DNA of 64,000 nucleotides from Methylophilus methylotrophus DSM 46235 = ATCC 53528 (GTDB lineage Bacteria > Pseudomonadota > Gammaproteobacteria > Burkholderiales > Methylophilaceae), in contig NZ_KB905143.1 of NCBI RefSeq assembly GCF_000378225.1, positions 124,001-188,000 on the forward strand. The letters run 5' to 3'. Under the pieces are notes generated by a model, which saw only the letters and a list, made by a program, of their open reading frames with translations, had not been told where the DNA came from and ran no database searches. Shown here in pieces: positions 55,447 to 58,243 of this stretch. Position 1 is the first letter of the stretch. Each line of letters begins with the position of its first letter. A program made the position numbers and the translations under genes.

Positions 55447-55480
55447 CGGTGGCTCCTGCGGGAGCCACCGTTTTGGTTTA
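55447..55480 (+). terminator. Terminator between the SDR gene and the bufferin operon
   Basis: CGGTGGCTCC and GGAGCCACCG form a ten-base stem with a TGCG loop, followed by TTTTGGTTT. It lies about 130 bases after the SDR stop and next to the convergent doxX end. Confidence 0.85.
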
Positions 55481-55930
55481 TTTATCAGACTGTTTGCGCT
55501 CCAGAAAATAATCTAGCGAGACCTTGCCTGCCCCACAAATCGCCAGCCAGGTGAACACGGCAAAATAGGTCGCTTCTTCAAATCCCAGCAAGGTTTCCAG
55601 CGAATCAATATCCGCCAGCTTGGCGGAAATAATGGCCACCACCATGACCACGGCCAGGCCGCCTCCGAGCACTCTGGTCATCAGCCCCAGTATCAGGCCC
55701 AGCCCGCCCAAAAACTCCCAGCCTGCCACAAAAGGCGTCAACAATTCCGGGAATGGAATACCCCAGCTTTTGAAGTTTTCTATGATGGCTGGTAAGTTAT
55801 CGAGCTTGGCCCAACCGGTCAGCATAAATGTATAGCCAACCACGATACGCGCGACCAGCGGGCCAGCCCATTCAAAATGGGCGGCGATGCGTTTAGGCCA
55901 ACAGATCAACAGGTTCAGTAATGCGTTCAT
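55478..55930 (-). CDS. DoxX-family membrane protein of the bufferin operon
   Basis: The 150-residue protein has four hydrophobic segments and the DoxX pattern (VARIVVGYTFMLTGWAKL, then FPELLTPFVAGWEFLGGLGLILG). In bufferin and gold-induced gig operons the last gene is a DoxX protein (GigT), thought to support redox or electron needs of the modification enzyme or export. GGGGAAAT precedes the ATG at 55930. It follows the fused bufBC gene by 26 bases. Confidence 0.88.
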   Translation of the reverse strand: MNALLNLLICWPKRIAAHFEWAGPLVARIVVGYTFMLTGWAKLDNLPAIIENFKSWGIPFPELLTPFVAGWEFLGGLGLILGLMTRVLGGGLAVVMVVAIISAKLADIDSLETLLGFEEATYFAVFTWLAICGAGKVSLDYFLERKQSDK

Positions 55931-55956
55931 TGGTATTTCCCCTTCAGTGTGTATGT

Positions 55957-57606
55957 TTACGTGTATTGATGCGATGCGAGCAAGCCGTTGCGCATCCATT
56001 TTGAAAAATATTCCGTGATCTTGTATTTCGCGTCTTCCTCAACGTCAGCCAAGGTCTCGCCTATGTTTGCGCCGCTAAATAGTTTGCTGAGCAAGCCAAA
56101 TTCCTGTGCCTCCAGCTCCATGCGCCACACTACATCCTCATGTCTGAAGACAGCCAGGTAAACGGCCTCATGCAGTGGCTCATGAGGCGTTTGGTCATCC
56201 ATCACGGACTGGTAATAGGCATTCACCTGCTGATCAAATTGCATCAAGGCCAGGGCCTGGCGTGGATACAGTGTCAGGTCTAACAATGTCTCGGCTGTCA
56301 GCCCATGGATATCTGCTTCATCCAGTGGCTGGGTTTCGGTAGGGTCTGTCATTTGCGCCACCGTGGTTTCCAGCTGGCACATGGCATGCGCAAAAGCATC
56401 GTCAGGCAAGGTCTGTTGAATAAAGGCTGGCAGTTTGAGTGCAAAACGGCCAATATTAAAGTGGTCCGGTAACACCTCTTCCACAAACGCCCAAATCAGG
56501 TCCGAGAATATTTTGTCGGTCAGGTAATGCCGCAATACCGGATAATCTTCAGCCACCGCATCATACAAACGGTAGCGGTAAGCGTTGGCGTAGACCGCTA
56601 ACTGCTCGTGTGGCGCAAATGCGTTTTTGGCCCGTATCCACTGCACAGGCACGCTATCAAAACGGTCACCCAGCATCACCGCCTGTTGCATATGGGTTTG
56701 TGCCTTTAAGAGCGGCACGCTTTCTTCAGCCGCAACGACGCTTTCATCATGCGCAATCTGCGGCAAGGTAAATTCGGTGGCATGCCTGGAGGCTTCCCTG
56801 GCCTTATCCAGCTCTGCGGATAACACCGGAAATTCTGGGATACGGTCATCCCATTCAATCATGGTATTGGGCACACGCCCGGCCCTATGCACCACATATT
56901 TGTAGAGGTTCCACACCTCATCAATCACATGGTCATCATGAGTATCCACAATATGGTTGCCTTTATGGCTATGCCCGGAAAGATGTACCTGTATGACGCG
57001 GTCCAAAGGCAGGGCATCCAGGTAGCTTTGCGGGTCCAGCCGGTGGTTAAAGCAGGTGACATACACATTGTTCACATCCAGTAGCAAATGGCAGTCAGCC
57101 TCATTAGCCATGGCTGCAATAAACTCTGCTTCCGGCATCGTAGAGTGCTTGAACTCCAGATAAGTCGAAGGATTTTCCAGCGCAATCCTGCACCCCAGCC
57201 GATCCTGCACCTGCTGGATACGGTGGACAATATGCTTGAGCGATTCTTCGGTATAAGGCAGCGGCAACAAATCATGCGTATTTTTATGCGCCACACCGGT
57301 CCAGCACAGGTGGTCGGAAACCCATGCAGGATTCACCCAGTCCATCAGCGCTTTCAGTTTTTTAAGATAGTCAGAATTCAACGGGTCTACGCTGCCTATC
57401 GACAGGGACACCCCGTGCATGACGACCGGGTACTGTTCTTGGATACGCGCCAGATTGCGTTTGGGCTTGCCGTCGGTATCCATAAAGTTTTCGGAAATCA
57501 CTTCAAACCAGTCAACCTTGGGTTGATGCTCAAAAATATAAGGGTAGTGCTGAGGTCTGAGCCCGAGTCCGAAACCGAGAGATAAATGATCTAAATCTAA
57601 GCCCAT
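55957..57606 (-). CDS. Fused MNIO enzyme and partner (BufB-BufC; DUF692-DUF2063)
   Basis: The 549-residue protein fuses two normally separate proteins. Residues 1-280 are DUF692, a TIM-barrel multinuclear non-heme iron oxidase. Its candidate ligands are in [32 protein letters not shown] and VHLSGHS. Residues about 300-549 are DUF2063 ([30 protein letters not shown]), the peptide-binding partner. Known MNIOs convert precursor cysteines to thiooxazole-type groups that bind copper. AAAGGAA lies before the ATG. The upstream gene encodes the precursor. Confidence 0.92.
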
Positions 57607-57621
57607 TTAAAAATTCCTTTC

Positions 57622-57645
57622 AAAAAAGCAGGGTGACTACCCTGC
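57622..57645 (-). terminator. Intercistronic terminator-like hairpin between bufA and bufBC
   Basis: On the minus strand GCAGGGT pairs with ACCCTGC around AGTC, followed at once by TTTTTT. It sits between the precursor stop and the enzyme start. Partial termination here would give more precursor than enzyme transcript. Confidence 0.8.
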
Positions 57646-57676
57646 CTTTTTGAATCTGGTTGAGATAATTTCTAAA

Positions 57677-57946
57677 TTACTTGCTACCGTCAGTGGCGCA
57701 TGAACCCTTGCCCTTACACGCGTTTTTGCCATCGCCACCCTGGCCTTTGCAGGCGTTTTTACCTTTACATGCATGCTTCTCTTTGCCATCTGCCGTTTTG
57801 CAATTGGCTTTTTCCATCTTGGTATCGTCTTTGCCGTGACAGCCAGACTTGCTCTCTTCGCCTGCGAATGCCGGGGTGGCAGTCATCACGTTGGCGGTAA
57901 ACAGGCCCAAAAGTGCTGCAGCAGCTAATTTGTTAGTCGTTTTCAT
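57677..57946 (-). CDS. Bufferin-like Cys-rich exported RiPP precursor (BufA/GigP type)
   Basis: The 89-residue product has a Sec signal peptide (cleavage near residue 28, TPAFA-GEES). The 61-residue mature part has six cysteines at 36, 49, 60, 66, 77 and 83 and is very rich in Lys and Gly. KNACKG occurs twice (63-68 and 74-79), giving two C-x5-C pairs. It is the first gene before a fused MNIO enzyme, the layout of bufferin precursors, which bind copper after cysteine modification in the periplasm. TTAGGAG precedes the ATG at 57946. Confidence 0.88.
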   Translation of the reverse strand: MKTTNKLAAAALLGLFTANVMTATPAFAGEESKSGCHGKDDTKMEKANCKTADGKEKHACKGKNACKGQGGDGKNACKGKGSCATDGSK

Positions 57947-57970: not shown

Positions 57971-57998
57971 AAAAAAATGAACCAGTCCATGAGGACTG
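57971..57998 (-). promoter_or_regulatory. Possible attenuator hairpin in the bufA leader
   Basis: On the minus strand CAGTCC pairs with GGACTG around TCAT, and seven T residues follow five bases later. It lies about 25-50 bases before the bufA start codon. The stem is only six base pairs, so termination strength is uncertain. Confidence 0.35.
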
Positions 57999-58243
57999 CC
58001 ACCTTTAGTCTGAGGAGATAGAAATTACTTACATGTATTTTTCAAACAGGTTGAAAATTTTTATAAACGGCTTTTCCACAACACCGGAGATCTATGAACA
58101 GATAGAAAAATTGAAACATCTGCAACAGGGATGGTCACTTTATTTAGGATTGGTCCATGCTTCAAGTTAGACTATGGACCTCTAGTAATTAGCGGATTGA
58201 TGCTGACGCTAACCCAACATGAATCAATGAAAGCAATCCAAGC

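Follow-up and report, generated by a model that had tools for sequence, protein, structure and literature searches.

A natural fusion of a BufB-type MNIO with its BufC-type partner in a Buf2-like operon of Methylophilus methylotrophus

Can an MNIO enzyme and its DUF2063 partner form one protein in nature, and what would such a protein make? The question is raised by a bufferin-type operon of Methylophilus methylotrophus DSM 46235 = ATCC 53528 (genome size, 2.86 Mb), located in a stretch of 64,000 nucleotides (contig NZ_KB905143.1 of assembly GCF_000378225.1, positions 124,001 to 188,000) that is called the window here. A first, sequence-only reading had described in this operon an exported Cys-rich precursor, a 549-residue DUF692-DUF2063 protein and a DoxX protein following it. 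All three were recovered: the precursor, with six Cys and two GKNACKG units, at the exact coordinates; PF05114 and DUF2063 in one frame; and DoxX (PF07681, 1.4e-20) after the fused gene. The operon comprises the following parts (window coordinates).

57677-57946, minus strand: precursor gene, bufA2-like, 89 amino acids; an open reading frame with the signal peptide MKTTNKLAAAALLGLFTANVMTATPAFA and then six Cys, four of which precede Lys
55957-57606, minus strand: fused MNIO (BufB) and partner (BufC: DUF2063 plus a putative RRE-type domain), 549 amino acids; assigned by Pfam, NCBIfam and the conserved frame
56707-56796, minus strand: linker between the MNIO barrel and DUF2063, residues 271-300; variable sequence
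55478-55930, minus strand: DoxX / HvfX-type membrane protein, 150 amino acids; assigned by PF07681

A single frame for enzyme and partner

Pfam analysis placed the MNIO domain PF05114 at residues 12-272 (1.5e-110) and DUF2063 (PF09836) at residues 303-396 (6e-12) of a single frame. The MNIO half matched the BufB equivalog NF050167 (374.6 bits versus a cut-off of 310, residues 12-270), and the BufC half, which showed weak HvfC similarity in NCBIfam, was homologous over its length to split BufC (248 aligned columns, probability 100, E 1.7e-42). The gene order precursor-MNIO-DUF2063-DoxX fits a Buf2 operon, with the middle two as one gene; the bufferin systems described elsewhere have MNIO and partner as separate polypeptides. 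The DoxX start at 55930 was picked by sequence reading; the scans with Pfam and NCBIfam ran from 55939, and there the gene was above the Pfam cut-off for PF07681 and reached 65.3 bits with the HvfX/DoxX model NF050144, under the curated cut-off of 80.

The fused frame is real rather than a sequencing frameshift, because it is kept in 10 of 22 Methylophilus genomes and in five alphaproteobacterial metagenome-assembled genomes (MAGs), with purifying selection on both halves. In the Methylophilus sample (33 MNIO matches in 21 genomes), the fused frames span 547-583 amino acids from stop to stop, and the precursor gene lies directly 5' of the fused gene in all ten genomes. Scanning of contigs with short peptide patterns of the window protein, a procedure that favours close relatives, returned 12 loci, 11 fused and one split. 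Six of these 11 were in genomes already counted among the ten, and the remaining five were the MAGs (class labels as filed), with 47-61% identity to the window protein. The median ratio of nonsynonymous to synonymous substitution rates (dN/dS) was 0.05 for the MNIO half and 0.15 for the BufC half, with 32 of 36 pairs usable for each.

A joined frame could also result from a sequencing or assembly error, or from a lone frameshift across two ordinary overlapping genes, as the sequence-only reading itself had cautioned. The raw material for such an accident exists: in the split loci L064 and L066, which belong to the same larger clade as the fusions, bufB and bufC overlap by 4 bases out of frame, so that one indel close to the overlap would be enough to fuse the two, and just one in-frame stop codon parts the two genes in L065 and L067. 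However, conservation of the frame across the ten genomes and the five distant MAGs, together with the selection on both halves, leaves this explanation a negligible chance, and the fusion survives the check. As a side observation, L065 and L067 have 12-Cys duplicated Buf2 precursors, and their layout represents a natural intermediate between the split and fused forms.

The linker may be nearly free to vary, because its dN/dS was 0.31 in the only 11 of 36 pairs that were usable, and because the closest pair (the window and L018) differed there by six nonsynonymous changes and no synonymous one. Across 17 fused rows it measures 35-42 residues (equivalents of Ala269 to Gln307), and comparison with the ends of split proteins indicated that it is approximately the C-terminal tail of split BufB plus the start of BufC, with little more. 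Such a fast-evolving segment would also suit a different situation, in which the gene is fused while the working forms are separate, free BufC being additionally produced by an internal start or by proteolysis in the linker; in the window, Met306 near the start of BufC could initiate translation. Yet an equivalent of Met306 occurs in only 10 of the 17 fused rows, and the AlphaFold2 model of the whole 549-residue chain (mean predicted local distance difference test score [pLDDT], 86.7) had a predicted template modelling score (pTM) of 0.84, as expected of domains packed together, pTM being an overall score and not a pair error. We therefore regard the additional release of BufC as quite improbable and retain the single chain as the working form.

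DUF2063 was detected in all nine fused BufC halves scanned, and the RRE-type domain PF22106 was detected in three of them. A C-terminal RRE-type domain in the BufC half of the window is indicated indirectly, by PF22106 in these relatives, by the alignment with split BufC and by the helix-strand pattern predicted by AlphaFold2 at residues 452-539.

Active site, precursor and predicted product

Published work is cited below by PMC number. The best structural matches of the modelled barrel were TglH, 3BWW and MbnB. Asp-Thr-His (221-223) and Asp-Val-Asn-Asn (177-180) aligned on the same motifs of 3BWW, a solved Haemophilus somni homologue, and E251-W-D253-D254 aligned on its E-R-D-F. All 17 fused rows, including the fusion of genome G277, had both D253 and D254. 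In FonB, Asp249 is the proposed catalytic base, and the next residue, Phe, is replaced by Asp in Cys-Lys MNIOs (PMC12668002). D254 sits on the Phe of 3BWW that corresponds to FonB Phe250, a placement made via 3BWW, with FonB itself outside the alignment; by this sequence correspondence the fused enzyme carries the Cys-Lys MNIO marker, Asp254. The residues essential in HvfB, N175, D242 and H244 (PMC13419390), were matched to the fused enzyme by motif only.

The precursor has a putative Sec signal peptide, recognized by eye from its basic start, hydrophobic stretch and AFA end. The six Cys beyond AFA occur as C-H, C-K, C-K, C-K, C-K and C-A, so that Lys follows four of them, all but the first and the last; we predict that the four Cys-Lys cysteines are the modified ones. 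With the BufA2 model NF050166, four other fused-clade precursors scored 29-41 bits, versus 98-100 bits for the classical Buf2 peptides of the split operons L041 and L042 and of the G277 fusion. This divergence was not caused by the fusion, since the precursor of the split sister locus L066 also scored low (30.8 bits). The aligned precursors have a common core, ACKGxNxCKG, and vary in Cys number (six in the window, four in L007, seven in L008 and six in L088). L007 and L088 lack the first outer Cys, and a closing disulphide is therefore not general. By its sequence the precursor is a divergent Buf2 (Cys-Lys) captophorin. The further suggestion that the Lys/Gly-rich spacing could mean a new modification or metal was not sustained, because the motif NACKG has been described before and the enzyme carries the Cys-Lys marker Asp254. 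Gadgil et al. tested NACKG as one of the common 5-mer motifs, and the Lys-Cys enzyme FonBC did not process it when it was swapped in as a repeat (PMC12668002).

On these grounds of sequence, the operon likely makes a Buf2-type (Cys-Lys captophorin) copper-binding peptide by means of a natural single-chain maturase. In the mechanism that we propose, transcription would start at a conserved promoter of the extracytoplasmic function (ECF) type, and a hairpin after the precursor gene would let less mRNA reach the enzyme, leaving precursor in excess over enzyme. The fused protein would use its RRE-type domain to hold the signal peptide as a leader in the cytosol, while its DUF2063 part would dock on the barrel and favour the active Fe(II)/Fe(III) pair. 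The barrel would then use O2 to oxidize each Cys before Lys (four here) by four electrons to a 5-thiooxazole, a change of about -4 Da per site, and the peptide would be exported by Sec and bind Cu(I) in the periplasm. A covalent link would turn the pairing of B with C, otherwise weak, into an obligatory one. Parallels exist for several steps: HvfC is needed for the mixed-valent iron state of HvfB, and HvfA without its signal sequence is poorly modified (PMC13419390); 5-thiooxazoles are present in the MNIO-PME1 products that Gadgil et al. examined, one of which binds Cu (PMC12668002). The idea that a single protein could serve as a 1:1 maturase gains support by analogy from the man-made HvfBC fusion, which fully modifies its precursor in vivo (PMC13419390).

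Several observations weigh against this interpretation. The chemistry is proposed by homology throughout, and the metal, docking and promoter activity are predictions. The BufC half of the window gave no match in the PF22106 scan, and the window precursor (3.6e-7, 30.3 bits) falls under the BufA2 cut-off of 60. A DoxX motif was seen beside 14 of 18 distinct fused loci, with none at L005/L019, L087, L088 and L059, and the fused maturase of L087 (G1019:C2:59500-66500) had no Cys-rich gene by our filter in 7 kb, nor in the 800 upstream bases. Moreover, a related MNIO/DUF2063 system of Microbulbifer went undetected in the proteome with or without added copper (PMC12538549), so that a role in copper stress is not general. 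As to L087, its maturase may act on a precursor encoded elsewhere.

It is also conceivable that the product is directed at a different metal or stress (gold, mercury, redox or sulphur stress) or carries a different Cys modification. Such a role would be in keeping with the low scores of the five fused-clade precursors relative to the three classical ones and with their variable Cys number, with an ECF-type promoter and a matching site before a thioredoxin-like gene (L015 and L046), which hint at redox stress, and with the lack of copper induction in Microbulbifer. By contrast, the ACKGxNxCKG core and the Asp254 marker match those of Cys-Lys captophorins, the examined MNIO-PME1 products are thiooxazole peptides of which one binds Cu, and the low precursor score is shared by split L066 and hence not tied to the fusion. 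We thus consider a different product unlikely; the chemistry and role are most likely those of the known Cys-Lys captophorins.

Distribution and origins of the fusion

Profile searches for DUF692-DUF2063 fusions, which the sequence-only reading had suggested, retrieved further examples in Methylophilus, in G277 and, twice, in the class of genome G890. The family sample contained no fused frame outside Methylophilus (149 matches in 113 of 187 genomes). In the phylum sample, 145 of 398 genomes had a match, and among the best matches listed only the genome of the window had an unbroken full-length one; in the class sample (222 of 369 genomes), one further fusion, G277, was present among the matches listed. 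The class of G890, another class of the phylum that is Alphaproteobacteria by inference, had matches at E ≤1e-80 in 31 of 289 genomes, two of them fused. The natural MNIO-partner fusion is rare, and most relatives use two proteins. No Methylophilus genome listed holds, by score, both a fused and a split Buf2-type gene, the Methylophilus genomes G008 and G011 having the split form.

In a phylogeny of 48 BufB domains, 14 fused proteins formed one clade (99/97), nested in a larger clade (100/99) that also held two split pairs from another class, L064 and L066, and the pair L012 of a planctomycete MAG. Fifteen split enzymes of the family, including that of G008, formed a separate clade (100/99), and the split Methylophilus copy G011/L015 and the family copy L048 fell outside both. 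The G277 fusion grouped with split enzymes of its class, branching beside L054 and L062 without starred support. The tree of BufC halves, which has several long branches and unsettled bootstrap values, agreed on the 14 fused proteins (90/98). Approximately unbiased (AU) tests, with groups named after the tree was seen and with L012, L014 and L059 as long branches, rejected a single origin of all fusions including G277 (p 3.3e-5) as well as joint descent of the nine fused Methylophilus enzymes and the 15 split Methylophilaceae enzymes (p 1.7e-8). These phylogenies indicate that the fusion arose independently at least twice, once in the Methylophilus/alphaproteobacterial clade and once in G277. 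Since the fused clade is separate from the split genes that the family itself has, horizontal acquisition of the operon by Methylophilus is probable. The donor was probably a member of the Alphaproteobacteria, the alphaproteobacterial members being metagenome bins with labels as filed or genomes whose class is inferred.

Other long frames were assessed as well. The 668-residue frame of G445 is no fusion, merely an upstream open frame, and the 439-residue frame of G528 accompanies a separate overlapping bufC candidate. The 425-residue frame of G399 (L061) is left out of the fusion count. Several long frames, such as those of G792 (604), G566 (660), G829 (627), G860 (523) and G962 (554), matched the fused profile only up to about residue 270-310; a divergent fusion could exist among them or among matches beyond those listed. 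In addition, the G277 fusion, at L059 (G277:C27:121500-126500), has a precursor of the classical Buf2 kind, and genes for an ECF sigma factor and a DUF3379 protein come after it. Two contigs filed as viral in IMG/VR (L117 and L118) bear MNIO genes akin to the barrel half, which could be carried genes or host sequence, and the fused gene L009 comes from an environmental metagenome bin labelled Rickettsia typhi, a label that looks doubtful.

Promoter element, related systems and significance

Upstream of and within the operon, three noncoding features were found (window coordinates).

58005-58033, minus strand: promoter-like element TGTAAG-N17-GACTAA, presumably of the ECF sigma type; identified by its conservation upstream of bufB
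57983-57998, minus strand: small hairpin/palindrome CAGTCC-TCAT-GGACTG just downstream of the promoter element; identified by covariation in 10 fused Methylophilus loci
57619-57654, minus strand: terminator-like hairpin in the gap between precursor and enzyme; identified by folding energy, z-score and relatives

The element, which we take to resemble an ECF sigma factor promoter, is common to Methylophilaceae Buf2 operons of both layouts, fused and split. Within 900 bases upstream of bufB, and with one mismatch allowed, it was present in 30 of 31 Methylophilaceae Buf2-type loci (25 exact), which come from related species and hence are not independent; the sole miss, L038, had only 315 bases of upstream sequence. 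Shuffled-letter controls of the same 31 stretches (n = 300) averaged 0.12 loci, with no more than 4 in any shuffle. Upstream of bufB, again with at most one mismatch, no site turned up in the 18 loci from another class or a planctomycete or in the 14 loci from the class and phylum samples. The count leaves out nine Lys-Cys-type loci (L014 and L026-L033) as well as L053, L006 and L009, all missed by the bufB pattern. The exact-pattern scan of the loci then collected lists none of the nine, whole-locus scans of L006 and L009 gave no site within one mismatch, and L053 had two one-mismatch sites. Genome-wide, the exact pattern had two hits, the operon (G000:C3:182005-182033, where the window starts at C3:124001) and L095, which had no bufferin-like gene downstream. 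The reversed control also gave two hits, so that only position and conservation carry weight. The sigma-70 promoter scan did not report the element; the genome of the window has 20 sigma-region-4 matches. A near-match inside the ECF gene of L014 was set aside, as it lies in the coding sequence of a conserved helix. Further copies precede a thioredoxin-like gene (by eye, CxxC motif) in L015 (spacing 18) and L046, and an EF-hand-like exported protein (by eye) in L005, hinting at a small regulon.

For the hairpin/palindrome at 57983-57998, 94% of cells were paired over five pairs in the 10 fused Methylophilus loci, with a covariation of 0.52 (reached by 0 of 500 shuffles) and three pairs changed on both sides (reached by 15 of 500), the structure having been read from the same sequences. 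The gap hairpin at 57619-57654 had a folding energy of -25.8 kcal/mol (z -5.3). Hairpins occurred in all eight precursor-enzyme gaps folded (z -2.4 to -6.6), including those of two alphaproteobacterial MAG loci with unrelated gap sequence; a terminator scan found six terminator-like sites in the region, versus 3.5 in shuffles. The gap hairpin possibly lowers enzyme relative to precursor. If it is a partial terminator, it would keep precursor levels above those of the enzyme, with the enzyme-to-partner ratio held at 1:1 by the fusion.

Compared with known systems, the operon shares with bufA2-bufB2-bufC2-doxX operons the gene order, the exported Cys-Lys precursor, the BufB-type MNIO, the partner with DUF2063 and an RRE-type domain, and DoxX, but here B and C are one polypeptide, and the precursor is under the BufA2 cut-off with rearranged Cys units. 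The man-made HvfBC of the Haemophilus influenzae oxazolin system likewise joins the MNIO C terminus to the N terminus of the DUF2063 partner, 1:1 by design, and it gave complete precursor modification in vivo and markedly more product than the co-expressed pair (PMC13419390). It is artificial, linkerless and directed at a Lys-Cys (EGKCG) substrate, whereas the Methylophilus fusion is natural, has a linker and is predicted to act on a Cys-Lys substrate. MovX, an MNIO with a fused RRE (PMC13419390), is another natural MNIO bearing its own recognition domain, but only the RRE is named as fused, with no DUF2063 partner, a distinction made by description and not by sequence. The split bufBC operons of the Methylophilaceae (for example, L016 and L041) have the same promoter element (both exact), a Cys-Lys precursor and the active-site Asp-Asp, but have separate genes, belong to another tree clade and encode lipoprotein-like precursors (by eye); a DoxX motif was not found at the split loci L015, L016 and L041. 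The genome of the window has a second, conventional MNIO operon with split BufB and BufC, L014 (G000:C1:1223459-1227265), consisting of an ECF sigma gene, a small gene, an EGxC-type precursor with a weak HvfA match, BufB and BufC. It resembles the fused system in its MNIO, DUF2063 partner and exported Cys-rich precursor, but differs in its split genes, its EGxC-type precursor, its upstream ECF sigma gene and a Ser at the Asp254 position, and the two systems probably act on different precursors.

Bufferin-side fusions and an MNIO-nitroreductase fusion have been described, none with DUF2063 in the accessible text (PMC12452194). We found no natural MNIO-DUF2063 fusion in the literature covered, to which supplementary tables and many subscription papers did not belong, and the accessible portions of PMC12668002, PMC13097082, PMC12538549, PMC12710340 and PMC13174530 mention none. 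What thus appears to be unreported so far is a complete fusion occurring in nature, together with its double origin and transfer, and also the subfamily of precursors and the promoter element. A fuller scenario, to which we give an even chance, is that a one-polypeptide maturase evolved at least twice and passed between Alphaproteobacteria and Methylophilus in the form of a self-contained cassette that brought along its own subfamily of precursors, which has tandem Cys-Lys units and lacks the classical first Buf2 unit. The cassette would now stand behind the split-Buf2 promoter element of the recipient family, its product being a Cys-Lys captophorin in which the number of thiooxazoles varies and the outer disulphide is often missing.

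Pairing between an MNIO and its partner can be weak, and HvfB and HvfC had to be linked artificially before an enzyme that was both homogeneous and highly active was obtained (PMC13419390). The joined form appears to have been made already by nature at least twice, once in Methylophilus. Methylophilus is culturable, and its fused protein should offer a stable single-chain enzyme for probing the effect of the partner on the iron cofactor, and it should also help to make Cys-Lys thiooxazole peptides; FonBC, a Lys-Cys enzyme, left a NACKG substrate unprocessed. Moreover, sigma factor genes were reported in Buf1 clusters and none in Buf2 clusters by Antoine et al. (PMC12452194), and with the shared promoter element it becomes directly testable how Buf2 operons are regulated.

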